IMG/VR virus record: IMGVR_UViG_3300045005_000251
Span: 1-30,374 of that record
Direction: 5' to 3' (one strand)
Origin: a virus
DNA length: 30,374 nt
Part shown: positions 299-29,373 of the stretch, piece after piece
Layout of the letters: the number at the start of each line of letters is the position of its first letter
Position numbering within the stretch: position 1 is the stretch's first letter
Program-made: the position numbers and the translations under genes
The notes under the pieces: model-generated
Database searches by the model: none
The model's input: only the letters and a program-made list of their open reading frames with translations
Told to the model about the DNA's origin: nothing

Positions 299-1206
299 CC
301 TGGCGCTGGTACTGCCGCCACCTCGACGCGCTCGTGCCGCTGGCAACAGCCGAGTGCTGTCGGTGCGCGCCGGCGATCCAGCTCGAGCGAGCCCGAGCCG
401 CGTTCCACGGCATCGCGTTGGCGGTCGAGGCTGCCATCGACGCGGCCACGGCCAAACCCGCGCGAGCGCCCTGGCCCGCGGACGAGCTCGACGAGTCGGC
501 GATGCAGCCGCCGCGGACGCCCACCGTGCGCGGGCTGACCATCGACCAAGAGGACGACCTGCGCGGCTACTTCGGTGGCCTGCTCGAAGTAGTCGCCGGC
601 TGTCGCAGTCCGCTCGGGTCGATGCTCGACCGGATGAAGTACCAGCTGCCTCGCGACCTGGGCGGCTATCAGCGGACCTTCGCGGGGGTCGATGACGTGC
701 CGAGGGGTTTCCAAACCGACGTCGCCGGCGCCCAGGCTGGACGGCATGACGCGGAAGACAAGCTCATCCAAGCGATGGAGATCGTCGTGCGGCAGCGAAC
801 CATCCGCGCCGCGCTGCGCGCGATCGAGCCGGGCCTCGCCGGCGTCCTGCGCGTCGTCTACAGCCCGATCCCGGAGCAGCTCGTGCTCGGCCTCGTCAGC
901 GCGTTCGAGGACCGCGAAACCGCCGCGGTCGCGATGCTTGGCGTGCCCGTCCCGGCGCCCGGCGGGAGCAAACGCGAAAAATTGCGAGCCCTCATCGAGC
1001 GTGCCAACGGCGACAAGCGCCGAAAGATCGGGCCGAGCGACAAGGCATGCGCGGAGCTGAACGAGCGACGGACCGACGCCAAGGTGAAGATCCGAGCGGC
1101 GGTGGATGCGTACGTGAACGCCCTGCGCGACGTCCAGCGCCGGGCGCGAGAGGCCAAGCGCCGTCGTTTCGAGATGCTGCTCGCGCAGGCGCGGAGTCCC
1201 ACGTGA
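286..1206 (+). CDS. Hypothetical protein, 306 aa
   Basis: I chose the GTG at 286 because AGGGAGGT lies just upstream and because the frame before it reads as a non-protein shadow. The start overlaps the stop of the preceding gene by 13 bases. The N-terminus carries a small cysteine cluster (AECCRCAP, residues about 23-30). The middle is acidic and helical. The last third, from about residue 230, is very rich in Lys/Arg and predicted helical (KREKLRALIERA, then AREAKRRRFEMLL), which would suit nucleic-acid binding. No known family is recognised. Its stop overlaps the next start by four bases (GTGA), so it is probably one operon with its neighbours. Confidence 0.65.
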   Translation: MRELTWRWYCRHLDALVPLATAECCRCAPAIQLERARAAFHGIALAVEAAIDAATAKPARAPWPADELDESAMQPPRTPTVRGLTIDQEDDLRGYFGGLLEVVAGCRSPLGSMLDRMKYQLPRDLGGYQRTFAGVDDVPRGFQTDVAGAQAGRHDAEDKLIQAMEIVVRQRTIRAALRAIEPGLAGVLRVVYSPIPEQLVLGLVSAFEDRETAAVAMLGVPVPAPGGSKREKLRALIERANGDKRRKIGPSDKACAELNERRTDAKVKIRAAVDAYVNALRDVQRRAREAKRRRFEMLLAQARSPT

Positions 1207-1823
1207 CCGCGGACGACAGCTGCGGATCGTGCGGCGCGGCGTTCAAGCACCACGGAAACGGCGCCATCTGCGGCCACGAGGATTGGCACCCGGTATGGGA
1301 CCGCGATCGCCCCCCGCCGCGATGCGCGCTGTGTCTCGCAATGGATCGGCGAATCTGTCACGCGTGCTGCAAAGAGAGCGTTCGCGATGCCATGGAGCAG
1401 GGGTTCAGGGCGTACTTGACCACCATCGCCGCCGAGCCACCGAAGGTCGCTCAGGTCGTGTACCTCATCGAAGCCGCCGAGGTATGCCGCGTGAAGGTTG
1501 GCTCGTCGAGCATCGGTGCCGCAGCTCGCTTGCGCGCCCTCCAGACAGGATCGCCCGTGCCACTCAGATTGGTTTGCGCGGTGGCGGGCGACCAGGCGCT
1601 CGAGTTCGAGCTGCATCGAAAGTTCGCGCGGCACAGGACGAACGGCGAGTGGTTCGCTGATGCCCCCGAAATTCGCGATTGGTTCGCGCGGAGGCTCCAG
1701 CAGGATACGCGGCGACTGGCGGCGCAGAAAGCGGCCGCGCTCGTGAACAGCCACCTTCGCGATCTCTTCGGGTCCGACAGGCGGAGGATCTACTACGTCG
1801 AGCGTCAGTTCGAGGCCGCATGA
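1203..1823 (+). CDS. Zinc-finger plus GIY-YIG (T5orf172/Mug113-type) nuclease-like protein
   Basis: The GTG at 1203 overlaps the previous stop (GTGA) and starts a 206-aa protein. Residues 7-55 hold Cys/His clusters (C7-x2-C10, C23-x-H25, C41-x2-C44, C52-x2-C55) that look like one or two zinc-binding modules. Residues about 84-155 match the T5orf172/Mug113 branch of the GIY-YIG superfamily: VVYLIEAAEV, then KVGSS, an Arg after a short loop (RLRALQTGSP), the acidic/His pair in EFELHRKF (E136, H138), and the closing NGEWF (E149). Members of this family are found in phages and mobile elements and are presumed DNA nucleases. The C-terminal 50 residues are basic and helical. Function as a DNA-processing or selfish endonuclease is inferred; the family call is fairly firm. 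Confidence 0.8.
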   Translation: MTADDSCGSCGAAFKHHGNGAICGHEDWHPVWDRDRPPPRCALCLAMDRRICHACCKESVRDAMEQGFRAYLTTIAAEPPKVAQVVYLIEAAEVCRVKVGSSSIGAAARLRALQTGSPVPLRLVCAVAGDQALEFELHRKFARHRTNGEWFADAPEIRDWFARRLQQDTRRLAAQKAAALVNSHLRDLFGSDRRRIYYVERQFEAA

Positions 1824-2934: not shown

Positions 2935-3558
2935 ATGCCAGCCGCCAGCCCCCCGCGTACCCGCTCGAAGGCCGGGGCCGACGCGGCGAGCGAAAAAATC
3001 GACTCGCGCGCGCGCGCGACCCCCGCCGCGGACGAAACAGCGGCGGTGTGGGTGCCGACGGCAGCTCAGCGTGAGAGGTTCCACCACAGCTATCGCATCG
3101 ACGCCGAGACCGGGTGCCACGTTTGGATCAAGTCCGCTTTCGCCAACGGATGTGGGTACGGGAGTTTCAGCGCCAACGGCAAACGTCGTCTTGCGCACCG
3201 CGTAGCGTTGTTGCTCGCTCACGGCGAAATCCCGCTTGGGCTCTTCGTCTGCCACAAGTGCGACAACCCACCATGCGTGAACGTGCACCATCTCTTCCTT
3301 GGGACCGCGGCCGACAACATTGCTGACCGCGATACGAAGGGGCGCACCGCTCGCGGCTTGGGGAATGGCATGCATACGCATCCGGAGGACCGCGCCCGCG
3401 GCGAACGCAATGGGTCGGCGCGCCTAACGCGCGCTCAGGCACTCGCCATCCGGCAGCTTCGCAACGAGGAGGGCTTCGGGGCCAGCAAGCTCGCCGAGCT
3501 CTTGGGCATCAGGCGCTGGATGGTGTGGCGCATCGCGACCGGACAGGCGTGGCAATGA
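2935..3558 (+). CDS. HNH endonuclease with C-terminal HTH
   Basis: The 207-aa protein has a classic phage/homing HNH_3 core at residues about 88-137: AHRVALLLAHGEIP, then C106-H-x-C109-D-N-P-x-C114-x-N-x-H118-H119, followed by FLGT and DNIADRDTKGR. The cysteines form the zinc site, and H118/H119 with N128 supply the catalytic centre. Residues about 164-205 (LTRAQALAIRQLR to WMVWRIATG) form a helix-turn-helix of the kind that positions free-standing homing endonucleases on DNA. The first 40 residues are low complexity, and no good ribosome binding site precedes the ATG at 2935, so the true start could be a GTG near 3046. The stop overlaps the methyltransferase start. Nicking or cutting of phage or competitor DNA is the likely role. 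Confidence 0.9.
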   Translation: MPAASPPRTRSKAGADAASEKIDSRARATPAADETAAVWVPTAAQRERFHHSYRIDAETGCHVWIKSAFANGCGYGSFSANGKRRLAHRVALLLAHGEIPLGLFVCHKCDNPPCVNVHHLFLGTAADNIADRDTKGRTARGLGNGMHTHPEDRARGERNGSARLTRAQALAIRQLRNEEGFGASKLAELLGIRRWMVWRIATGQAWQ

Positions 3559-4826
3559 GCGAAGAGGCTGCCGCGGTATGGGTAGACATTGCGTCGCTGC
3601 GCCCGTGGGTGAAGAACCCGCGCAAGAACGATCACGCCGTCGATCAAGTCGTCGAGTCGATCAAGCGCTTCGGGTTCGGCGCCCCCCTCGTTGCCCGCAA
3701 GGCCGATCGTTCGATCATCGCCGGGCACACGCGCCTGAAGGCCGCGTTGAAGCTCGGGCTCGAGGTCGTGCCCGTTCGCTACCTCGACCTGACCGAGGAC
3801 GAGGCGCACCGCCTCGCGCGCGCCGACAACAAGCTCGCCGAGCTCGCCGAGTGGGACTCGGTGGCGCTGCTCGCGCAGCTGCAGGGCGAGAACGAGGTCG
3901 ACCGGCTGTTGCAGGGGTTCACGCCCGCCGACATGCGCCGGCTCATGGGCGAGGTCGCGCGCGCCGACGACTCCGCCGTCGTCGAGGACGAGCCGGTCGA
4001 GCCGCCCGACGTCGCCACTACCAAGCTCGGCGATCTCTGGCTCCTCGGCGATCACCGCATCCTCTGCGGCGACAGTACCAAGGCCGACGACGTGCGGTGC
4101 CTCATGAACGGCGAGCGCTCAGCGCTCATGGCGACCGACCCGCCATACCTGGTCGACTACACGGGCGAGGACCACCCGCAATCCGCGAAGCGCAAGGCCG
4201 CCTTCGTGGCCGCGGGCAAGCCCGCCGCCGCGGCCGGCAACAAGAACTGGGACGAGTACAAGGACCCCACGGCGTCGGTCGAATTCTTCTCCTCGTTCAT
4301 CCGCGTCGCGCTCACCGAAGCGCTCATCGAGAGCCCGCCGATCTACCAGTGGCATGCGTCGCGGCGACAGGCGCTCGTCGAGACCGCCTGGACCGAAAAC
4401 GGGCTGCTCTGGCATCAGCAGATCATCTGGGTGAAGTCGCGGCCGATCCTGACGCACAGCCACTTCATGTGGCAGCACGAACCGTGTGCGTATGGTTGGG
4501 TCGAGGGCAAGCCCCCGGCGCGGAAGCCGCCGTGCAGCGGCGATTGCTCTACGGTTTGGCAAATCGACCAGAAGGGCGAGAGCGACGGCATCCACCCGAC
4601 GCAAAAGCCCGTCGAGATCTTCGCGCGACCCATCAAGTGGCATACGAGCCCGGGCGAGCTCTGCTTCGAGCCGTTCAGCGGCAGCGGCACGCAGATCATC
4701 GCCGCCGAGCAGCTCGGCCGTCGCTGCTACGCGATGGAGCTCGAGCCGCGGTTCGTCGACGCGGCGGTGCAGCGCTGGGAGAAGCTCTCTGGCAAGAAGG
4801 CGGAGCTGGCGCGCGCTGCGGCCTGA
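3555..4826 (+). CDS. ParB-domain / N6-N4 DNA methyltransferase fusion
   Basis: This 423-aa protein starts at an ATG overlapping the HNH stop (ATGA). Residues about 8-105 form a ParB/sulfiredoxin-like domain: LRPWVKNPRKNDHAV, SIKRFGF, then IIAGHTRLKAALKLG and ADNKLAELAEWD. Residues about 160-412 are the methyltransferase, with the catalytic DPPY tetrad at 195-198 and the AdoMet-binding FSGSG at about 374-378 after IHPTQKPVEIF. Motif IV before motif I marks the beta class of amino-methyltransferases (m6A or m4C). ParB-methylase fusions are common orphan methylases of prophages. No cognate restriction gene is evident here, so self-protection against host restriction or epigenetic control is likely. 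The partnership with the overlapping HNH gene is intriguing but unproven. Confidence 0.92.
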   Translation: MSEEAAAVWVDIASLRPWVKNPRKNDHAVDQVVESIKRFGFGAPLVARKADRSIIAGHTRLKAALKLGLEVVPVRYLDLTEDEAHRLARADNKLAELAEWDSVALLAQLQGENEVDRLLQGFTPADMRRLMGEVARADDSAVVEDEPVEPPDVATTKLGDLWLLGDHRILCGDSTKADDVRCLMNGERSALMATDPPYLVDYTGEDHPQSAKRKAAFVAAGKPAAAAGNKNWDEYKDPTASVEFFSSFIRVALTEALIESPPIYQWHASRRQALVETAWTENGLLWHQQIIWVKSRPILTHSHFMWQHEPCAYGWVEGKPPARKPPCSGDCSTVWQIDQKGESDGIHPTQKPVEIFARPIKWHTSPGELCFEPFSGSGTQIIAAEQLGRRCYAMELEPRFVDAAVQRWEKLSGKKAELARAAA

Positions 4827-4992
4827 TCACGGCACAGCGCGCCAGGTGCGGCGCCCACGTCGCGCCCCGTCGGGCCCGTGGTTGATCCAGGCCGTTGGGC
4901 TACCACCGGCGCGCCCCGCCGCGTCGTGGGCCAACGTGGCGCGAACGGGCCACGATGGCGCCCGCCTCGCCGACTTGCGCGCCCGGCCGCGC
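4827..4992. other. Noncoding gap between convergent genes
   Basis: This 166-bp stretch lies between the methyltransferase stop and the stop of the minus-strand 87-aa gene. I see GC-rich, weakly self-complementary sequence but no T-tract terminator and no convincing short gene. Confidence 0.5.
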
Positions 4993-5256
4993 CTACCTCG
5001 ATCGCGTGCGCGCGGGCGGATGGTGAGGCGCTGCGGCGGCGCTTCGTTCGGCCATCGAGCCGTTGCGCAACCCGCTCAGGTGTTCGAGCGCCAAGCCCAG
5101 GAACCATTGCTTGCGCTCTTCATCCGCGTCGAAGAGGAAATTGGCCAGCGCCTCTGCCGCGGCGTGCTGCCTCGAGATCATCATCGACACGTCGCCGCCG
5201 CAGACGTTGCGGATGCATGCCATCGCCCTGCGCAGATCCTTGCCGGAATACCTCAC
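4993..5256 (-). CDS. Hypothetical protein, 87 aa
   Basis: A GTG at 5256 overlaps the TGA of the DUF2924-like gene by four bases (GTGA on the minus strand), which fixes the start and implies translational coupling. The product begins VRYSGKDLRRAM and has helical segments around AAAEALANFLFDADEERKQWFLGLALEHL, then a basic, low-complexity tail. Amino-acid usage is ordinary compared with shadow frames. No family is recognised. It is the last gene of a three-gene minus-strand group. Confidence 0.65.
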   Translation of the reverse strand: MRYSGKDLRRAMACIRNVCGGDVSMMISRQHAAAEALANFLFDADEERKQWFLGLALEHLSGLRNGSMAERSAAAAPHHPPARTRSR

Positions 5257-5933
5257 GCGACATTCTCCCGCAGCGCCTCGATCGCCGCGGCGTGCTTCTT
5301 GATCGCGGCTCGGACCTGGCTGCGGTTGTCGTCGGTGATGCCGGTCTTCACGAGCGCCTCGGCGTTGCCGCGGTAGCGCTCCCAGGCACGATCCAGCGCG
5401 ATCATGGGATCGCGCTGCGCCCGCGCGGGCTTGGTGATGCCGAAGAAGGTCCATCCATTGATGGCACCCCCGCCCCCGCCAAGGTCTTTGGCCGCTGCCA
5501 TCGCCGCCGCCGACAGCGACTTGTAGAGCTGGCCCTTGTAGCGAACGCCGCCGTCTTCGACGGTGGCCTCGCATCGCACGGCGCCGTGGCGATCGCGTTT
5601 TTCGAGCACCGTGCCGACGGGCGGCATGCGCGGGTCGGTCGCGCGCGGTGGGCGCTCCGCCTTCGGCGCCTTGGGCATTGCCGGCGCCGCCGCGCTCTTG
5701 GCCGGCGGCTTTTTCGCGGGCGCCTTGGCCTTCGCGTCGGGCTCTGCTGCCGCGCCGTCCTTGCCGCCGTCGCGCTTGGTGAGCGCGCTCGAGATGGTCT
5801 TGATGAGGAAAGCGCGATCGTTGTTCGGCGCCTCCTTGCCAGTCACTTTGTGGAATAGCTCGCGCAGCGCCGCGCTCTTCATCTTCGTCAGGTTCTTGAT
5901 TGCGATGTTCAGTTGATCTGCCACGGTCTTCAT
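5253..5933 (-). CDS. DUF2924-like protein
   Basis: The 226-aa product starts with MKTVADQLN, a helical domain ending around residue 50. A Lys/Ala/Pro-rich linker follows at about 65-95 (AKAPAKKPPAKSAAAPA). The C-terminal domain is reminiscent of DUF2924: VGTVLEKRDRHGAVRC, then VRYKGQLYKSLSAAAMAAA and a Gly-rich turn followed by INGWTFFGI. The pattern of a short beta-hairpin, SLSAAA and N-G-W-T-F-F-G is the hallmark of the family, which is frequent in prophages and next to phage recombinases. Its biochemical role is unknown. The last 60 residues are a helical extension (DRAWERYRGNAEALV). It is followed by the coupled 87-aa gene. Confidence 0.75.
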   Translation of the reverse strand: MKTVADQLNIAIKNLTKMKSAALRELFHKVTGKEAPNNDRAFLIKTISSALTKRDGGKDGAAAEPDAKAKAPAKKPPAKSAAAPAMPKAPKAERPPRATDPRMPPVGTVLEKRDRHGAVRCEATVEDGGVRYKGQLYKSLSAAAMAAAKDLGGGGGAINGWTFFGITKPARAQRDPMIALDRAWERYRGNAEALVKTGITDDNRSQVRAAIKKHAAAIEALRENVA

Positions 5934-6017
5934 TAGCCTTCTCCGGCGCGACGCGATCGCGCGTTTGCCTCATCAGCGCCGGAGCGACCGGCGGACGGAC
6001 CCTGCGGTCCGTTTCGC

Positions 6018-6389
6018 CTACATCGCGTCGATGAGCGCCTCGGCGACGTCGTCGTCGCTGGCGCACAGCGCCTCCTCGATCCCGCGGCGCGCGACGGTCT
6101 CGCTGCCGTCGGGCCCGAGCGCGAGCCCGACCGCGATCGCCACCAGCCGCTCGCGCAGATCGGCGAGGTCGCCCACGCGGCTCCACGTGGGCTTGTCGGT
6201 CGCGAGCTTCGGGTGGCAGTCGACGGCGCCGGCGATGAGCTCGATCAGCGCCAGCACGTCGCGCTTGTTGGCGGCGAACTTCGCGTCCGGCGCGCCGCGT
6301 CCGCATCGGCCGCACGCGCACGCGTCGGTTCGCGTCTGAGTGCGCGGGCAGATGGCAGCGTTCTCGCGGGTGGTCGTTTCGATGTTCAT
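6018..6389 (-). CDS. Hypothetical protein, 123 aa, Cys-rich near N-terminus
   Basis: The ATG at 6389 is preceded on the minus strand by GGAGA at good spacing. The N-terminal 40 residues contain C-x-C-x2-C (ACACGRCGRG) and an upstream C-P, a possible small zinc-binding site. The rest is predicted helical (KRDVLALIELIAGAV, then LADLRERLVAIAVGLAL). No family is recognised. It is the first gene of the minus-strand group and is divergent from the terminase small subunit, with 125 bp between the two starts, so both may share a regulatory region. Confidence 0.65.
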   Translation of the reverse strand: MNIETTTRENAAICPRTQTRTDACACGRCGRGAPDAKFAANKRDVLALIELIAGAVDCHPKLATDKPTWSRVGDLADLRERLVAIAVGLALGPDGSETVARRGIEEALCASDDDVAEALIDAM

Positions 6390-18177: not shown

Positions 18178-18522
18178 ATGCTCACGCCGATGCCGGCCGA
18201 GGTTCGAAGCTGGGTCGACTCCGCCAAGTGGACCTTCGCGAAGACCTACGCCGCGACCTGGCCGCACGAGTACATCGTGCGCAACGACGAGAACGCCGAG
18301 ATGATCCTCGCGCTCGCGCGGCACATCTTCGATCACGGCACGCCCGGGCGGTTCTACTCGCAGGTGCGGCCGTACCACCATGAGGACGGCAAGGCGTACT
18401 GGTCGATGGACGACACGCCGGAGGACACCACGTTGATCAACCGCTGCGACGAGTCGGGCACCTACGAGGCGCGGCTCGCGGCGGGCACGCTTCCCTCGCA
18501 AACGCGGCCTGGCTCGCGATAG
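18178..18522 (+). CDS. Small conserved hypothetical (WTFAKT family), cargo gene
   Basis: The 114-aa product starts at ATG 18178 (or 18190). Its core reads RSWVDSAKWTFAKTYAATWPHEYIV, then FYSQVRPYHHEDGKAYWSMDD, and TTLINRCDESGTYEARLAAGTLP. I recognise this as a widespread bacterial hypothetical family in which W-T-F-A-K-T, H-E-Y, Y-W-[ST]-M and I-N-R are conserved. Its function is unknown. It sits between sheath and tube, where no such gene is expected, ten bases before a PD-(D/E)XK nuclease gene. The pair is thus likely to be co-transferred cargo and perhaps cooperates. Confidence 0.85.
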   Translation: MLTPMPAEVRSWVDSAKWTFAKTYAATWPHEYIVRNDENAEMILALARHIFDHGTPGRFYSQVRPYHHEDGKAYWSMDDTPEDTTLINRCDESGTYEARLAAGTLPSQTRPGSR

Positions 18523-21829: not shown

Positions 21830-24016
21830 GTGTCCGTCGAGCGTTACCAGTTCATCGCCTCCGGCCAGGGCGACGTCGTCAGCGCGTTCAAGTCGATCGG
21901 GCGCGCGGCGAACGACAGCAAGACGATCGTCGAGCGCAGCTTCGAGGGGGTTCCGCGCGCGGCGGCGAGGAGCGCAGTCCGCACCGAGGCGGTCGAGTCG
22001 CGCGCCCAGGCGCGCCGCATCGCCATCCTGGAGCGCGCCGATCAGCAGCGGAAGGCGCGGCTCGAACGATCGGCGCAGGCCGAGCTACGCGCGCTCGAGC
22101 GAAGGCTCGCCAAGGAGCAGGCCGGCGAGGAGCGTGCCGCCGCCAAGCGGGTAGCGCTCGCGGAAAAGACCGCCAAGGCGGAAGCGGACGCGCGCTCGCG
22201 GCGCGTGTCCGGCGCCGTCCGCGGGCTGGGCTCGATGGCGATCCGCGGCGCCACGCTGCTGGCTGCCGGCGCCGTGGGCATGACCGGGCTCGCCATGCGC
22301 GAGTCGCTCCAGCTCGACGAGCGCGCGCGCCGCGTCGCCATCCAAGGCTCGACGCTCACGCACCGCGAAGATCCGACCGGCCTTCGCCGGCATTTCGAGA
22401 ACACCGCTCTCGCCGTCCCAGGCGCGTCGGCTGCCGGCGTCGCCGGCGGCGCCGAGCGCTTCATGGCGAAGACCGGCGATATCGACGCCGCCAAGCGCTT
22501 CAGCCAAACGTGGGCCGAGGTCGCGGTCGCCACGAGCGCAAGCATCGAGGACATCGCCGACGCCTCCGCCGACTTGATGACGAAGTTCGACATCAAGAAA
22601 ACCGAGGACATGGCCGCGGCGTTGTCGACGCTGGCGGTTCAGGGCAAGCGCGGCGCGTTCGAGCTGAAGGACGCCGCCGTCGAGTACCCCCGCATCGCCG
22701 CGGCAGCGCAGCGGTTCGGCATCGGCAAGGGCGTCGGCGCGCTCACTACGCTGGGCGGGCTCACGCAGCTCGCGCGCAGCGCCACCGGCTCGAGCGCCGA
22801 GGCCGGCACGTCGGTCGAGCGCATGTTCTCGAACATGGGCGTCAAGGCCGGCAAAATCCGCGCGCTCACCGGCGTCGACGTGTGGAAGGGCGACTTCAAA
22901 GAGAACCTGGTCAACATCATCGGCAAGGCTGGCGGCAGCGACTACGGCAAGAAGTACAAGGTGCTCTCCGAGGTCTTCGGCGAGCGCGGCATTCGCGCGA
23001 TATCGCCCTTGATGAGCGCGTTCGCGGAGGCCGTGAAAGACGGCAAGGACGGCTTCCAAGCGATGCGCGACAAGCTCGCCGAAGCCACTGACGCGACCGG
23101 CGCCGACGCGGAAATTCAGCGCGACCTCGCCACCGCGCAGGAGGGCGCGAGCGCGCGCCTAACCGCCGCGTGGGAGAGCATCAAGGCGCAGCTCGGCGAG
23201 GCGACGCCCGAAATCGCCGACCTCGCCAAGCGCTTCGCCGACTTCATCTCGACGACCGACTTCGGCTTTCTCGCAACGGCGCTCGACAACCTCGCCGACG
23301 CCGCGGGCTCGGCCGCCGACTTCCTCGAATCGCTCGGCGTGCTGAAGAAAAAGCCGAAGACCGTCGAGGACCAAGTCCGCGACGCCGAGCGGCAGTACAT
23401 GCGCTACGCGCCCGAGCGCGAGAAGCTGCAGAAGCGGCTCAACGAGGTCGGGCCGGGCGGGCTCAGCAAGGAGGAGTTCGACCGGCTCGGCGAGCTCAAC
23501 CGCCTCAAGCGCGAGCCCGGCCGGCTGCGCATGGAGGAGGAGCGCCGCAAGCGCGACCTCAAGGAGATGGCCTCCGGCTACATGTCGCAGGGCGAGCTCG
23601 CCGATGCGCTCACCGGCGCCGACACGGGGCAGACGCTCTTCGGCCACAAGACACAGCTCACCCGCGAGGGCGCCAAGAGCGTCGCCGAAAAGCTCGCCGA
23701 GAACCCCGACATCCCGCTACGCGACCTCGGGCTCGATCTCGGCGAGGACTCACCGGCGCTCGCGAAAATCCGAAAGTTCGCGGGCACCGTGCACACCGCG
23801 CGCGGCGAGGGCAGCGGCATCACCGCCGACGAGCGCGCCCGCGCCGCCGACACCCTCAACCGCGGCAGCGCCGCCGCTGACGAGACCGCGGCCAAGCAGC
23901 ATGAGTTCGCGGCCAAGCAACACCAACAGGCAGCCCAGCAGCTCAAGGACGCCGCCGAGGCGCTGAAGCGGTCCATCCCCCGGTCGCACTTCGCCGGGGC
24001 GGATGCGCAGGGGTGA
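21830..24016 (+). CDS. Tape measure protein
   Basis: A GTG at 21830, one base after the previous stop, opens the longest protein of the tail block, 728 aa. It is helical with a long basic/acidic coiled-coil run at residues about 45-125 (ESRAQARRIAILERA to ERAAAKRVALAEKTAK). A hydrophobic Ala/Gly segment follows at about 135-160 (IRGATLLAAGAVGMTGLAM). The central domain (residues about 175-400) resembles phage TMP_2-type tape measures (VSTS-like SIEDIADASADLMTKF, then GAGTSVERM-type motif). The C-terminal third is again coiled coil. The length sets tail length. It is followed by a cargo island rather than by the gpN-like gene. Confidence 0.88.
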   Translation: MSVERYQFIASGQGDVVSAFKSIGRAANDSKTIVERSFEGVPRAAARSAVRTEAVESRAQARRIAILERADQQRKARLERSAQAELRALERRLAKEQAGEERAAAKRVALAEKTAKAEADARSRRVSGAVRGLGSMAIRGATLLAAGAVGMTGLAMRESLQLDERARRVAIQGSTLTHREDPTGLRRHFENTALAVPGASAAGVAGGAERFMAKTGDIDAAKRFSQTWAEVAVATSASIEDIADASADLMTKFDIKKTEDMAAALSTLAVQGKRGAFELKDAAVEYPRIAAAAQRFGIGKGVGALTTLGGLTQLARSATGSSAEAGTSVERMFSNMGVKAGKIRALTGVDVWKGDFKENLVNIIGKAGGSDYGKKYKVLSEVFGERGIRAISPLMSAFAEAVKDGKDGFQAMRDKLAEATDATGADAEIQRDLATAQEGASARLTAAWESIKAQLGEATPEIADLAKRFADFISTTDFGFLATALDNLADAAGSAADFLESLGVLKKKPKTVEDQVRDAERQYMRYAPEREKLQKRLNEVGPGGLSKEEFDRLGELNRLKREPGRLRMEEERRKRDLKEMASGYMSQGELADALTGADTGQTLFGHKTQLTREGAKSVAEKLAENPDIPLRDLGLDLGEDSPALAKIRKFAGTVHTARGEGSGITADERARAADTLNRGSAAADETAAKQHEFAAKQHQQAAQQLKDAAEALKRSIPRSHFAGADAQG

Positions 24017-24130
24017 AGCAACAGGCCGGGCTCAAGAGAAGACTCGAACCGCTCTCGGACATTCCGCCGGAGGTGCGGAAACGCGGGAAACGCCTCTTGC
24101 GGTTCTGTCGCTGCATCGGTACCATAAATT

Positions 24131-25009
24131 GTGCATTCCGCGTCACTAGCACCAGGCAGGGCGCCGGAGAAGCGCCATCTTGGTCGACGCACGCGTCACG
24201 CGATCGCGATCCTGGCTTGCTCTTGCGTGTTGGCCGTGTTCGACCTTGCGTGTGCCGCCGTGTCGAACTCGCAGCGGTGCGGCAGCGACGCGGATTGCAA
24301 GGGAACACGGATCTGCGTTAACGGATCCTGCGCCGACATGGCTGGCGTGACTGATGCGACGGGCCCAAGCGGAGGCGCCGGGGGAACGAACCAAGGCTCA
24401 AGCTCTCCGAGCGCAACAGGAACTGGAGGCGGCACACTCCCCGGCGCGTGTGGAGGTAAACACTCGTTAGGTGGCACCTGCGATTCGAACGCCGATTGCG
24501 CGGAGACATGCGTAGAAAGTGTGTGTGTTGCGTTCCCGGTCGCCGCGGGAAAACCGTGCGACGACGACGATGACTGCGGCGGTGGCCAGACCACATTCTG
24601 TCTCCAAGGTATGTGTCAAAATCGTCAGTACGACGGCAAGTACCCCTTGGAACCTCCGTTCTGCGACTCTGATTGCGATTGCGTCGACTGCCGCGGGTGC
24701 TACAAAAGCAAATGCGTTGGGTGGCAGCCACTTGGTGGTGGCTGTGACTCCGACCTCGATTGCTACTCGCTTAACGACGAGGTCTGCATTTCGGGCAAGT
24801 GCGCTCCGGCCCAAACTACTTTTGGCGCCTTTTGCGATTCCGATCGCGACTGCAGCGTCCTAGGGACATGTTTTGACAACAAGTGCCTTGAGAGTGGTGG
24901 AGGTAATTGCGATTCCGATAGAGACTGCGGCAGCATCGATGGATGTCATCCGATGCCCAATCGAAAGACCGGCGGCGAAACAGGAGATAGGGGAATAACC
25001 GGCGACTAA
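24131..25009 (+). CDS. Secreted cysteine-rich repeat protein, host-like cargo gene
   Basis: GTG 24131 is the only start after an in-frame TAA at 24125. The N-terminus has basic residues (KRHLGRRTRH, about 15-23), then a hydrophobic stretch ending near C41, so it is probably exported and perhaps lipid-anchored. The body has seven cysteine modules, starting near C50, C117, C143, C178, C205, C235 and C260. Each opens C-D/G-S-D-x-D-C or close to it, and most end with x-C-x4-C. A Gly/Ser/Thr-rich linker lies at about 75-105. This C-x-S-D-x-D-C repeat is typical of secreted or surface proteins of Myxococcota. Nothing like it is expected in a tail operon, and the base composition is less GC-rich than in the neighbours, so I read it as host-derived cargo. 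Confidence 0.85.
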   Translation: MHSASLAPGRAPEKRHLGRRTRHAIAILACSCVLAVFDLACAAVSNSQRCGSDADCKGTRICVNGSCADMAGVTDATGPSGGAGGTNQGSSSPSATGTGGGTLPGACGGKHSLGGTCDSNADCAETCVESVCVAFPVAAGKPCDDDDDCGGGQTTFCLQGMCQNRQYDGKYPLEPPFCDSDCDCVDCRGCYKSKCVGWQPLGGGCDSDLDCYSLNDEVCISGKCAPAQTTFGAFCDSDRDCSVLGTCFDNKCLESGGGNCDSDRDCGSIDGCHPMPNRKTGGETGDRGITGD

Positions 25010-25068
25010 ACTGTGAGTGCTAAACCGTGCGGAACGTCGCGCTGACTCCCTGTCATGCTCTGTCGTGA

Positions 25069-25779
25069 TCACGGACATTGCGGGCACTCCATGCCGGTGG
25101 GCGACGACTTGCAGGGGCCTCCCCCGAAATCGATAAACTGATGTTCTGATGTTTCCGCTGTTATTGGTGCAAGTTGCCCTTGCAAATCCCAGTGTTGCCA
25201 CTTGCCACATGGCACGCCGCAATGACCGTCAAGAACGGCGCTCGAAAACTTTCCCTCGGAACTCTTACAACCGAGTCCGTCAAGGCCCTTGGAGCCGGAA
25301 GAAGCATACTTCGGGTACCAGAAAGTAACTGTTCCGACTGGCCAGGTGCAGACGTTGGCGCATTTGTTTGGGTCTGGCCCGGTGAGAAACTGGCCGTAGC
25401 CTGCAGCCTTGTAGGTTCCGTCACTATAGCATTCGTAAATTGGCCCCGGCTTCTGCGGACAGGTGTATGGAGCAGGTGGTTTCACCTCCTCGCACGGCTG
25501 AGGGAGATCTGTAGCATCGGCGGGCTCCACGCTTGCCGGACACTTTGTAAAGCTGGAACCGCCGGTGGCCGAGCTGCTCGTTGCCCCGGCGGAGACGGAA
25601 GCAGATGGAGTCGGGTCGAGGCATCCCCCTTGAACGCACACACGTGCTCCCTTGCATTCGGAATCACGCGTGCAGGCGCGATTCGCATCACCGGCACTGC
25701 AAGCCGCGACGGCGGCAGGCAATGCGTAACACAGGGCAGGGAGAATTGCGCGCGCCCGAACCCTTGGTCGCACCGTCAC
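25069..25779 (-). CDS. Cysteine-rich lipoprotein, host-like cargo gene
   Basis: A GTG start at 25779 follows AGAGGAGAA. The 236-aa product has a basic n-region (RPRVRARA), a hydrophobic core and a lipobox V-A-A-C at 24-27, so it is probably a lipoprotein. One cysteine module follows immediately, residues about 36-53 (CTRDSECKGARVCVQGGC). It is close in wording to the first module of the convergent gene (CGSDADCKGTRICVNGSC), so the two share ancestry of this module. A Ser/Thr/Ala linker leads to a Cys-rich C-terminal domain with YTCPQKPGPIYECYSDGTY, VTFWYPKYASSG, CGVPCGKWQHW, ending near CPQCP. The function of this domain is unknown. It is antisense to the tail genes. Confidence 0.85.
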   Translation of the reverse strand: MTVRPRVRARAILPALCYALPAAVAACSAGDANRACTRDSECKGARVCVQGGCLDPTPSASVSAGATSSSATGGSSFTKCPASVEPADATDLPQPCEEVKPPAPYTCPQKPGPIYECYSDGTYKAAGYGQFLTGPDPNKCANVCTWPVGTVTFWYPKYASSGSKGLDGLGCKSSEGKFSSAVLDGHCGVPCGKWQHWDLQGQLAPITAETSEHQFIDFGGGPCKSSPTGMECPQCP

Positions 25780-25977
25780 GTCCGTTGTTCTCCTCTGCTC
25801 GCTCGCCGCTGGTCAGCGTTCTCGCGCCTCAACAAGTGCATGGTATCCCGACGGCGCGTGCTGCTGCAAGCCCTGCAAGCTGGCTGAGCTGGCTGCACGT
25901 CCCCAGCACTGGCCGCACCGACGCACACGCGCGGCCTCGGGCACGCGTGAGCCACTCGCCTCTTGTTGCGCGTCGCC

Positions 25978-26868
25978 ATGGTCGCCACAGCTGCCTCGAT
26001 CATCTACGGGCTGCCGCGGATGCGGTTCCGCGGGCTGAATGCGCCGCCATACGACGTTGCGGGGTTCGACTTCCAGCACAGCCACGGCGAGCGCGGCTAC
26101 CCGTTCGTCGACGGCGAGGCGCACGAGTGGACCGGCCTCAACGCCAAGCGGCTGCAGTTCACGCTCTACTTCGTCAACACGCTCGAGGCCGACAGCTTCC
26201 CGAAGGCGTGGAATGGCTGGCAGAAGGCGCTCTTCAACGGCGCGCCCGGCGAGCTGGTGCACCCGCTCCTCGGACCGGTCCAGGCGATCGTGCGCGGTGG
26301 ATCCGTCCAGCTCGCGGCGCAGCTCATCAGCGGGATCGTCGTCAACGTCCAGTTCTCGACGACCATCAAGGATCCATCCGAGAAGCGGCCCGACTTCGTC
26401 GTGAAGGCGAAGGCCGCCGGGGGCTTTGCCTCCGCCGCCGACAACGCGGCTGCCGCTGCAGGCATCCCGTACCCGGAAGACATGCCGGGTCCGTCGCTGC
26501 TCGACATGATCAAGCAGATCGACGGCCTCATTTTCTTGCTGAAGAACGAGGCGCTCGGCCTCATCGCGCAGGTCCAGGGGATCATCGACTTCATGGTCGC
26601 GTTCATCGACGAAAACCGGCCCGACCACCTCGCCATTCAGGCGCGCGACGCGCTCGTGTCGCTGTGGGTGAGCCTCAGCAGCCTGGCCGAGGCCATCGGC
26701 GCCAACGCCGCGCGCAAGGTCGGCAGCGAGTCGCTCGCCAACGCGACCACGCTGGAAGCCTTCGCCCGGCGCCACAACAACACCTTGGGCGACGCGGTCG
26801 ACCTCAACCCGTGGGCGCTCGGCGGCCCCGAGGTGCCGAAGGGCGCCACGCTGAAGTTCTACGTCTGA
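25978..26868 (+). CDS. Mu gpN-like DNA circularisation protein
   Basis: I choose ATG 25978 (296 aa); TTG codons at 25963/25966 are possible, and the ribosome binding site is weak. The first 120 residues resemble DNA_circ_N (Mu gpN): MRFRGLNAPPYDVAGFDF, HSHGERGYPFVDG, RLQFTLYFVNT, then FNGAPGELVHPLLGPV. This baseplate component binds the hub. A helical region follows (about 165-250), and the last 39 residues look like a LysM-type module (TLEAFARRHNNTLGDAVDLNP, ending VPKGATLKFYV). This suggests contact with peptidoglycan or with baseplate neighbours. The name from Mu reflects a historic phenotype; structurally it is baseplate. Confidence 0.8.
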   Translation: MVATAASIIYGLPRMRFRGLNAPPYDVAGFDFQHSHGERGYPFVDGEAHEWTGLNAKRLQFTLYFVNTLEADSFPKAWNGWQKALFNGAPGELVHPLLGPVQAIVRGGSVQLAAQLISGIVVNVQFSTTIKDPSEKRPDFVVKAKAAGGFASAADNAAAAAGIPYPEDMPGPSLLDMIKQIDGLIFLLKNEALGLIAQVQGIIDFMVAFIDENRPDHLAIQARDALVSLWVSLSSLAEAIGANAARKVGSESLANATTLEAFARRHNNTLGDAVDLNPWALGGPEVPKGATLKFYV

Positions 26869-26871
26869 GCC

Positions 26872-28083
26872 ATGAGCGGTGCGGGTCGCGGCGTCGTCGA
26901 GCTTCGCCTGGCGGACGGCTCCGTTCTGGATAGCTGGGAGACGTTCTCCCTCCACGAGTCGTTCACGGACCCGCTCGGCAGCTACCAGTTCACGTTGGCG
27001 CCGCCGGTCGAGCAGCGCGCGACGCTTCGCGACAAACTGCGCAAGGGCGAGCGCGTTTCGATCCGGATCGACGGCCGGCCGCAAGCCACTTGCCTGATCA
27101 CCACGCAGACGCAGGAGATCGGAGACAACGGCTACACGCTCGCCATCGAGGCTAAGAGCCTGCTCGTGACCGCCTGCGAGGCGAGCGTCGATCCGTACCT
27201 CGCCAGGCACTACACCGAGGACACGCCGCTCAGCATCGTCGTCGGCGAGGTGATGGTGACGTTCGGCTTCGAGGTCGTCGTCACCGACGCGACGGGCGAC
27301 GTCACGGCCATCAGCGGCAAGTCGCTGCGCGGTCGCCAGCCGCCCGTTATCCTGGACCAGATCACTCTGCGCGATGTGCAAGCGCAGCAGAACGAGACGG
27401 CCTACGGGTTTTGTTCGCGTCTGTTCACGCGGTACGGCCTCGCGCTCCGGGTGAGCGCCAACGGAGAGCTGCTCCTGTCGACCCCCGACTACAAGCAGGA
27501 GGCCGCGCACGCGGTGGTCGCCAGCGCGGACACCACGCTCGAAGGCGACCGCCTACTGCGCCCGCAGGGCATCCAGATCCGCGACACGAACGACCAGCAG
27601 TTCTCCGAGATCGTCGTCGCCGGCAAGAGCGTCGACGAGCGCGGCACCACGTCATCGGCGCAGCCGGCGCACGGCGTCTTCGTGAAGGACGTCGAGCGAC
27701 CGATGGTGGCGCCGTTCTCGACGGTGAACCTGGAGCCGCTCGAGCGCGGGCGGCACACGTACCGCGGACCGTGGAAGCCGAAGTACCGGGTCGACAAGAA
27801 GAGTCGCGACCGCAAGCTCTGCAAGGAGTTCGCGAAGCTCCTCCACGGCGTCCGCGCCGCCAACGCCTTCCAGGTGCGGGGCACCGTCGACGGGATCATC
27901 AGCAAGAGCGGCCGATGCGTTTGGGCCGTCGACACCGTGACGCACGTGCGCATCGACCAGGCCGGCATCGATGAGGACATGTGGCTCCTGGAGCGCCACA
28001 TGCAGGTGAGCCGCCGCGGTGGTCAGACCGCGACGCTCGGGTGGATCCCGCTCGGGTCGCTGCTGTTGGGCGAGGCGAGCTGA
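26872..28083 (+). CDS. Mu gpP-like baseplate hub protein
   Basis: The 403-aa product starts four bases after gpN. Early residues (VVELRLADGSVLDSWETFSLHESF, then YQFTLAPP) and the LRKGERVSIRIDGRPQATCLI strand match the hub family (Mu gp44/gpP, T4 gp27-like). The middle has LVTACEASVDPYLARHY and VILDQITLRDVQAQQNETAYGF. The C-terminal region has VRIDQAGIDEDMWLLERHMQVS. It forms the trimeric platform that would hold the puncturing spike. The spike gene, which normally follows, is not recognised in the window. Confidence 0.85.
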   Translation: MSGAGRGVVELRLADGSVLDSWETFSLHESFTDPLGSYQFTLAPPVEQRATLRDKLRKGERVSIRIDGRPQATCLITTQTQEIGDNGYTLAIEAKSLLVTACEASVDPYLARHYTEDTPLSIVVGEVMVTFGFEVVVTDATGDVTAISGKSLRGRQPPVILDQITLRDVQAQQNETAYGFCSRLFTRYGLALRVSANGELLLSTPDYKQEAAHAVVASADTTLEGDRLLRPQGIQIRDTNDQQFSEIVVAGKSVDERGTTSSAQPAHGVFVKDVERPMVAPFSTVNLEPLERGRHTYRGPWKPKYRVDKKSRDRKLCKEFAKLLHGVRAANAFQVRGTVDGIISKSGRCVWAVDTVTHVRIDQAGIDEDMWLLERHMQVSRRGGQTATLGWIPLGSLLLGEAS

Positions 28084-28084
28084 A

Positions 28085-28807
28085 ATGGGCGTCCTACTCC
28101 GCTACACCGACTTCCGCGCGCGCGCCGCGAGGCGAATCTCGGTGAGCGGCAGCTTCACGATCGCCAACAGCACCATCACGCGGGCGGCGGGGAACTTCAT
28201 CGCCGATGGCGTCAAGATCGGGATGAGCGTGCAGGCGTTCGGCAGCGCCGCCAACGACGGCGCGCTGTTCACCGTCATCTTCGTCTCGCAGCTTTGGATC
28301 CTGGTGGCGGAGACCGTCGCAGTCGAAAGTCCGACGGTGTGCACCCTCAAGTTCGTCTGGATGTCGACCGACAGCCTCGAGGAGTATCCCGGGCTGTTCG
28401 CCGGGCAGGCGGGCCATACGAACCTCGTCCGCGCGAACGGCTTCAACGCCGGGTTCACCGGTATCCCGACCGGCGCGGTCGGCCAGAATTTCTTCGTCAG
28501 CGTGAACGGCCAGGCGCCCGACGCGATCGCCGGCGTCGACGAGTACGACTGGTACCTGAGCCAGCGGAGCGACGATCCGGCCAAGCAGTGGCTGTCGTGC
28601 GCGACGGCGCACTTCTTCAGCAGCGACACCTACTCGGGCACGGTGCTGGTGGCCACGACCGCGCTGGCCAACGCCGAGCTCGGCCTCGGGCTCACGCTCA
28701 CCGTCGAGCAGCAGATCGAGGTCTTCCGGTTCTGCCATTTGTACTGCCGCCGCCGCAGCGACGGAGCGATCCAGTGGGTGGACCTGCTGAAAGCGATGTT
28801 CGCGTGA
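28085..28807 (+). CDS. Hypothetical structural protein in the baseplate block
   Basis: ATG 28085 lies one base after the hub stop. The 240-aa product has a beta-rich N-terminal half (RRISVSGSFTIANSTITRAAG, then IADGVKIGMSVQAFGS) and aromatic patches (DEYDWYLSQRS, QWLSCATAHFFSS). It ends with EQQIEVFRFCHLYCRRRSDGAIQWVDLL. It occupies the place of the Mu spike gene (gp45) but shows none of its usual features that I recognise. It may be a baseplate or fibre-attachment component. The stop lies two bases from the stop of a convergent gene. Confidence 0.6.
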   Translation: MGVLLRYTDFRARAARRISVSGSFTIANSTITRAAGNFIADGVKIGMSVQAFGSAANDGALFTVIFVSQLWILVAETVAVESPTVCTLKFVWMSTDSLEEYPGLFAGQAGHTNLVRANGFNAGFTGIPTGAVGQNFFVSVNGQAPDAIAGVDEYDWYLSQRSDDPAKQWLSCATAHFFSSDTYSGTVLVATTALANAELGLGLTLTVEQQIEVFRFCHLYCRRRSDGAIQWVDLLKAMFA

Positions 28808-28809
28808 GG

Positions 28810-29373
28810 TCATGCCGTCGGCATCTTGCCGCCCAGCGCGTCGACGGCCGCCGCGATTTGAGGCAGGAACTGCTCGTGCGCGCCCTTCGCCCCACGCGCT
28901 CTTTCTAGGGCCCAGAGCAGATCAATGATGCTCGTCGCACTTGAATCGGCGAGACGTCCCGCGTCCTTAAGGGACCGTGTCTTCCACACGCTCGATTCCG
29001 CCATGACCGAGCCGAATGGCGAGGGATGGGCTTGCTTTATCCTGTCCGACGCGTCGACGAGGGTCGCGACTAGTTGTTCCTGCGCGTCGTCCAGTTTTCT
29101 TGTAAGTGCCGCACTCTCGTCGTCGATAACCTCGCGCTTGCGGTACATCTTCTCAAACCACGAGCCGAGACCAGCGATGGCGACGCCTTGCGCAATGAGC
29201 TTCGCGACCTCGAAGCGAAATTCCTCTCGCTTGGTGCTTAGGTTGATGTAGAGCGCGAGCATCACGCCAAGGCAGGCGATTGCGCCGACTGCAATTTGAA
29301 TCGTCACACGCCTTGGAGAGCGTGCACGGATGAATGCAATGATCTTGTCGAGTCTGACGTTGGTGGTGGGCAT
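28810..29373 (-). CDS. Membrane protein with coiled coil, accessory
   Basis: ATG 29373 on the minus strand gives 187 aa. After a basic N-terminus (RLDKIIAFIRARSPRR), a transmembrane helix runs at about 23-45 (VTIQIAVGAIACLGVMLALYI) and a second hydrophobic stretch at about 55-72 (VAKLIAQGVAIAGLGSWF). Residues about 83-115 are coiled-coil-like (DESAALTRKLDDAQEQLVATL). A soluble C-terminal part ends with IIDLLWALERARGAKGAHEQF. No holin or other family is recognised. It is antisense to and convergent with the tail genes and follows the next minus-strand gene. Confidence 0.7.
   Translation of the reverse strand: MPTTNVRLDKIIAFIRARSPRRVTIQIAVGAIACLGVMLALYINLSTKREEFRFEVAKLIAQGVAIAGLGSWFEKMYRKREVIDDESAALTRKLDDAQEQLVATLVDASDRIKQAHPSPFGSVMAESSVWKTRSLKDAGRLADSSATSIIDLLWALERARGAKGAHEQFLPQIAAAVDALGGKMPTA

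Follow-up and report, generated by a model that had tools for sequence, protein, structure and literature searches.

A probable two-gene cargo insertion for predicted exported, cysteine-rich proteins in the tail module of a metagenomic myophage

The window, by which we mean the whole stretch of 30,374 bp analysed here, is an IMG/VR virus record of metagenomic origin with a GC content of about 68%. It contains the genes of a tailed phage, among them those for the small and large terminase, portal, major head, tail sheath and tape measure proteins, together with the gpN-like and gpP-like baseplate proteins of a Mu-like tail end. The phage is a contractile-tail myophage with this Mu-like tail end, and its closest named relatives are remote. 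Among GenBank phages, no terminase exceeds 33% identity to that of the window (the top match is Acetobacter phage phiAO1), and for the tail sheath no match was found there. Relatives were gathered from IMG/VR by terminase- and sheath-guided searches, and the tail regions were then compared. Common to these relatives is a late gene order of sheath, tube, chaperone-like genes, tape measure, gpN, gpP and baseplate genes, and the gpP-like hub of the window is 36% identical to its homologues in L107-L109, with the same gene order.

Between the tape measure gene and the gpN-like gene of the window, two long open reading frames, here called P1 and P2, face each other (Table 1). This convergent placement had been described in a first-pass annotation, and it is confirmed by the extent of the reading frames and by the profile matches of both flanking genes. 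The true start of the gpN-like gene may be the ATG at 25978.

Table 1. Features of the tail region of the window (positions in nt of the window; residues where a protein is named).
Feature	Position	Strand	Remarks
Low-GC3 gene in tail module, 340 aa	18532-19554	+	Behind 18178-18522; GC3 0.70
Tape measure protein, left flank of insert	21830-24016	+	phrog_794, E=6.3e-18; homologues in L107-L111 and L002
Whole insert, tape-measure stop to annotated gpN start, 1,946 nt	24017-25962		Gap compared with nine contigs
P1, Cys-rich, predicted exported, 292 aa	24131-25009	+	Seven modules; PF23416; GC3 0.62
P1 anchor and first-module region, paralogous to P2 26-55	24248-24337	+	14/30 identical; E=2e-8
Convergent intergenic gap, 59 nt	25010-25068		No terminator-like structure
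P2, predicted lipoprotein, 236 aa	25069-25779	-	VAAC lipobox; one module; GC3 0.58
gpN-like protein, right flank	25963-26868	+	PF07157, E=2.2e-5; phrog_184, E=1.1e-8
gpP-like baseplate hub	26872-28083	+	phrog_177, E=3e-20
Antisense low-GC3 pair	28810-29373; 29400 to about 30218 (block to about 30365)	-	Behind 28019-28807; GC3 0.70

P1 contains 33 cysteines (11.3% of its residues), and P1 and P2 have the two highest cysteine contents among the 125 open reading frames of at least 100 aa found in the six frames of the window. The motif C-x(2,3)-[DN]-x-[DE]-C occurs in P1 exactly seven times (at residues 50, 117, 143, 178, 205, 235 and 260), and within the same set of 125 frames it is otherwise present only in P2, with a single match. 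In 10,000 composition-preserving shuffles of P1, the mean number of matches was 0.11 and the maximum was three. Six of the seven modules extend to a fuller form that ends in a Cys-x(3)-Cys-like pair, as for example in CDSDLDCYSLNDEVCISGKC. The Pfam model DUF7107 (PF23416) matches four stretches of P1 with E=2.6e-12 and 47.3 bits, compared with a curated cut-off of 24.6. Module 1 also shows weak similarity to the WAP, Dickkopf_N, EB and squash inhibitor models, in all cases below the curated cut-offs, and a weak match to elafin (E=0.013). DUF7107, Dickkopf_N, WAP and EB are generic labels for small Cys-rich modules.

The predicted export signal of P1 (about residues 20-42) consists of a basic n-region and a hydrophobic core with a peak Kyte-Doolittle value of 2.51 (15 residues from residue 25), and it is followed by module 1 (residues 50-67), a Ser/Gly/Thr-rich linker (about residues 72-104) and six more modules. 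The motif scan against the shuffles and the architecture of the N-terminus are in line with the earlier description of P1 as a protein of seven modules with a likely export signal. The P1 cysteine that is aligned with the lipobox cysteine of P2 sits in the sequence DLAC, which deviates from the bacterial lipobox pattern [LVI][ASTVI][GAS]C. As DLAC is a poor lipobox, the lipidation of P1 is uncertain, and the protein may be processed by signal peptidase I instead. P1 starts with a GTG that is the first start following a TAA, and inspection by eye gave no clear Shine-Dalgarno sequence before it.

P2 has a cysteine content of 7.6% and carries what looks like a textbook lipoprotein signal, in which the basic stretch RPRVRAR is followed by AILPALCYALPAAVAAC, in agreement with the bacterial pattern of basic n-region, hydrophobic core and the lipobox given above. 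The lone module CTRDSECKGARVCVQGGC comes straight after MTVRPRVRARAILPALCYALPAAVAAC, and the order along the protein is lipobox cysteine (residue 27), module (36-53), Ser/Gly/Thr-rich linker (about 57-76) and an unrelated Cys-rich C-terminal domain. Both the VAAC lipobox and the one matching module near the N-terminus had been noted before and are present in the sequence; a single motif was reached in 116 of 10,000 shuffles of P2 and is, taken alone, only fairly unusual. A Shine-Dalgarno-like AGGAG was seen by eye 10 nt upstream of the GTG start. Both proteins follow the pattern C-x(2,3)-D-x-D/E-C...C..G.C that is found in DUF7107, Dickkopf_N, WAP and EB domains, but whereas P1 scores above the DUF7107 cut-off, P2 remains under it (15.2-19 bits against 24.6), and the Dickkopf_N, WAP and EB matches are all below theirs. 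Single-sequence AlphaFold2 models of P1 and P2 reached mean pLDDT values of 40.8 and 36.9, respectively, and are too poor to use.

At their N-termini, P1 and P2 are relatives. Residues 40-69 of P1 and 26-55 of P2 are 47% identical, with an E-value that refers to a single pairwise comparison (Table 1), the lipobox cysteine of P2 aligns with a cysteine of P1, and the next cysteine follows eight residues on in both proteins. A trace of this likeness is found in the DNA as a 45-nt imperfect inverted repeat (24293-24337 and 25615-25659, 71% complementary). As both proteins have a Ser/Gly/Thr-rich stretch in addition to the homologous N-termini, they can be described as having a common start that consists of an export signal, one module and a spacer, past which they diverge into six further modules in P1 and an unrelated Cys-rich part in P2.

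The composition of the pair differs from that of its surroundings. GC is 0.60 in P1 and in P2 compared with about 0.68 around them, and GC3 is 0.62 and 0.58, respectively, compared with 0.81-0.95 in confirmed phage genes, so that the less GC-biased DNA remarked upon earlier is found again. For the terminase, portal, head, sheath, tape measure, gpN and gpP genes, GC3 amounts to 0.88-0.95 (0.92 for the tape measure and 0.93 for gpN). The codon fit of P1 (-1.47) and P2 (-1.61) likewise lies outside the range of -0.63 to -0.88 of the core virion genes, and the codon usage of the pair appears foreign to the phage core. GC3 by itself is insufficient to call P1 or P2 a gene. We regard both as coding because the PF23416 matches are confined to one frame and because the module residues are constant while their codons vary (TGC/TGT, GAC/GAT, TCT/TCC/TCG).

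In all nine other contigs that contain the junction, the tape measure and gpN genes are separated by -4 to +2 nt, as opposed to the 1,946 nt of the window, and in the first relative, L002, whose tape measure protein is 27% identical, the two genes overlap by one base. The nine contigs stand for about five lineages, as several of them are near-identical to each other. None of the nine, which have the same tail, carries P1 or P2 at this junction. Beyond the insert, the gpN gene, the gpP gene and the next gene (28019-28807) of the window keep the order found in L107-L111. As the phage synteny resumes past the insert, the best reading of the insert is an acquired cassette, or moron, and not a tail gene, and it is probably not a chimera. 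That the phage acquired this cassette recently, and that it serves for exported envelope proteins, has in our estimate a probability of roughly 0.85.

No terminal inverted repeats and no convincing duplication of a target site were found at the ends of the insert, and the best word common to both edges is an unconvincing 9 nt, so that a mobile-element origin was rejected. A GTG start that overlaps the tape-measure stop (GTGA) opens a frame of 102 aa (24013-24321, plus strand), whose GC3 of 0.65 does not support coding; this frame may be a remnant of an old translational coupling to gpN.

Morons are genes of foreign composition whose insertion sites lie between genes that are neighbours in related phages (PMC4378225). 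Of the three sequence features that define morons, the P1/P2 insert shows two, as it splits genes that are adjacent in relatives and differs in composition (PMC4378225). The third feature, an own promoter and terminator, was not recognised for P1 and P2. A search for sigma-70-type promoters, whose consensus may not match the promoter type of the host, found none, and the folding of the gap between the genes was on both strands no better than that of shuffled sequences (z -0.43 and +0.97), and no terminator was called there. The pair further differs from the usual single-gene moron in consisting of two convergent genes. Judged from the sequence features, the most fitting name for it is a convergent two-gene moron encoding putative anchor-sharing, multi-module Cys-rich envelope proteins. 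Proteins of this type were found in no other phage searched, while the insertion of genes itself is a known phage habit.

The late region of the window contains two more blocks of low GC3 (Table 1), and cargo therefore seems to have been taken up at three places. The product of the 340-aa gene contains RPDVALLDEDGRTTGFVEAKFW, which by eye resembles a PD-(D/E)xK nuclease core; the resemblance is unconfirmed by family models, and neither Pfam nor PHROGs gave a match for this product. Where the window has the antisense pair that starts at 28810, the relatives carry sense-strand baseplate genes. One protein of this pair is of a membrane type, the C-terminus of the other is hydrophobic and Gly/Ala-rich, and no confident family match was obtained for either.

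According to the first-pass annotation, P1 and P2 resemble surface proteins of Myxococcota, and a search against the genomes and phages of this group had been suggested. No relative could be confirmed. In GTDB genomes, two scans gave 51 and 59 pattern matches, none of which was confirmed by tblastn, and no relatives were confirmed in IMG/VR, GenBank phages or plasmids. Because the scans of GTDB and IMG/VR used short exact peptide patterns, their sensitivity is low, and the GTDB result is therefore weak negative evidence. With no confirmed relatives, the link to Myxococcota is thus unsupported, and in the literature nothing direct was found on Dickkopf-like or DUF7107-like proteins in myxobacteria. 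Matches of P1 and P2 in Pfam, PHROGs and NCBIfam are limited to Cys-module families. The pair occurs in a single record among those searched, so that its intact reading frames are the sole sign of maintenance by selection.

A DNA pattern for CDSDxDC had six matches over IMG/VR, of which only that in L014 lies within a clearly Cys-rich protein, whereas the others are chance matches or lie in unrelated frames. The L014 match belongs to an open reading frame of 598 aa with 75 cysteines and the motifs CDSDEDC and CEDDDDC (4171-5967, plus strand) on an unrelated viral contig. Near the tail genes of the distantly related contig L002, an antisense open reading frame that is cut by the contig end (12178-12606, minus strand) has 22 cysteines in 142 aa. 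Its similarity to P1 and P2 is not significant and it was rejected as a homologue; it may be independent cargo of like kind or host flank.

The best-supported place of action of P1 and P2 would be the cell envelope. The two proteins are unlike virion parts, because export signals and a total of 51 cysteines misfit cytoplasmic assembly and because the relatives make do with neither protein in assembling this tail. We propose that a cassette acquired between the tape measure and gpN genes of this Mu-like-tailed myophage would provide two proteins that are exported via the Sec pathway, with P2 being lipidated by the lipoprotein pathway and the disulfides of both probably forming outside the cytoplasm. 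Placed at the cell envelope, they would modify or obstruct a structure on the surface of the infected cell, and further phages or the phage's own progeny would then fail to adsorb. Such blocking would work in lytic infection, as is the case for the small phage lipoproteins Llp of T5 and Cor. Llp, which is encoded beside the receptor-binding protein gene, is a disulfide-containing lipoprotein of the outer membrane that jams FhuA from the periplasmic side (PMC9586334), and Cor inactivates FhuA and works like Llp (PMC11436027). P2 is comparable in being a phage-encoded predicted exported lipoprotein with cysteines whose gene lies beside tail genes, and the action of Llp and Cor needs no lysogeny. 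However, P1 and P2 are multi-modular and far larger than Llp or Cor, which is a point against exclusion, and no sequence or profile match to these was found; nor do Pfam, PHROGs, NCBIfam or PADLOC indicate a likeness to known exclusion proteins. By analogy, superinfection exclusion or surface blocking is therefore a tentative assignment that we give little more than one chance in three.

Lysogenic conversion, which had been suggested earlier, was not borne out by the gene content. Integrase, serine recombinase, rve transposase and ParA-type ATPase (AAA_31) genes were found neither in the window nor in the nine relatives of up to 58 kb, and as all ten records may be fragments, lysogeny is unproven. 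Of the idea that the pair is cargo, it stands that P1 and P2 are foreign to the tail module, have export features and are inserted where relatives have nothing, but the likeness to Myxococcota proteins and the lysogenic conversion are unsupported. We rank exclusion or receptor masking first, since it needs no lysogeny and no lysogeny genes were found, an unused host passenger second and conversion for the benefit of the host third.

As a passenger, the insert would be a piece of host chromosome that was caught by illegitimate recombination and has no phage use yet. The single known occurrence, the foreign composition, the lack of phage relatives in our searches and the presence of three such blocks in one late region are all compatible with such an origin. 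Both frames are, however, intact, and the insert lies exactly between two genes of which neither is damaged, as in functional morons, so that we regard a useless passenger as unlikely, although it ranks next after the exclusion reading.

Somewhat less likely still is a conversion cargo, in which surface proteins made by the prophage would alter adhesion, predation or kin recognition of the host. P1 and P2 are of an exported type and modular, a common anchor precedes their variable C-terminal part, and P2 runs opposite to the late genes, as expected of an independently transcribed gene. Precedents are known from Myxococcus, where SitA proteins are lipoprotein toxins encoded on Mx-alpha prophage elements (PMC5562445) and where TraA is an exported surface protein with Cys-rich repeats of the TIGR04201 type (PMC3325183). 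Like SitA, the pair includes a predicted lipoprotein with a variable C-terminal part that is tied to a phage-like element, but it has no sitI-like immunity partner or co-directional neighbour and is convergent instead of operonic. With TraA it has tandem Cys-rich repeats in a predicted exported protein in common, but P1 and P2 possess no PA14 domain, no MYXO-CTERM and no NCBIfam match, the TIGR04201 repeats included. No toxin-type domain was detected by Pfam, NCBIfam or PADLOC, searches that a divergent domain can escape, and no immunity domain was found. These points, the missing lysogeny genes in the window and its nine relatives, and a myxobacterial host that is unsupported by the GTDB scans speak against a conversion cargo. 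A bolder proposal, according to which P1 and P2 would form a two-gene, modular disulfide-rich set whose common anchor and exchangeable outer parts reprogramme the recognition of an infected or lysogenic bacterium by kin, prey, predators and phages, is in our opinion a long shot.

Still less credit can be given to an accessory of the virion, in which P1 would decorate the particle and bind host surfaces. P1 does lie in the tail module, in late direction and directly after the tape measure gene, and decoration proteins can be morons (PMC4378225), but the export signal and the 33 cysteines misfit assembly in the cytoplasm, P2 is antisense, no PHROG matches either protein, and all nine relatives with the same tail do without them. 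Just as improbable is another kind of exclusion or defence, in which the pair, instead of hiding a receptor, would be exported as a toxin or inhibitor directed against incoming DNA or predators; the WAP-, Dickkopf- and squash-inhibitor-like cysteine patterns are faintly suggestive of small disulfide-rich proteins with a binding or inhibitory role, but all these similarities are below curated cut-offs and are expected of any short Cys-rich module. An assembly chimera or misjoined contig, which the first-pass annotation had itself considered, is the least probable of all, because although the contig is metagenomic, was seen once, has three blocks of odd composition and junctions covered by no close relative, phage module order and orientation continue on both sides of the insert (tape measure on one, gpN, gpP and 28019-28807 as in L107-L111 on the other) and two independent precise misjoins would be needed.

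If P1 and P2 are indeed exported and change the cell surface, they would represent an exclusion or conversion factor that is built of repeated disulfide-rich modules, unlike the small lipoproteins of coliphages. The junction of the tape measure and gpN genes and the two other interrupted junctions would then be cargo slots in a little-known group of myophages, and as such they would be places to seek similar anti-phage or surface genes.

Outside the tail region, the window encodes a MUG113 domain protein (1047-1823, plus strand; PF13455, E=2.7e-7) and a ParB-like N-terminal domain fused to an N6/N4 DNA methyltransferase (3525-4826, plus strand). At 5959-6019 on the minus strand, just upstream of a DUF2924 gene (5253-5933, minus strand), the model RF02276 identifies a type II hammerhead ribozyme with 46.3 bits (E=1.2e-6), which exceeds the gathering score; hammerheads near phage genes are already known (PMC3088659).
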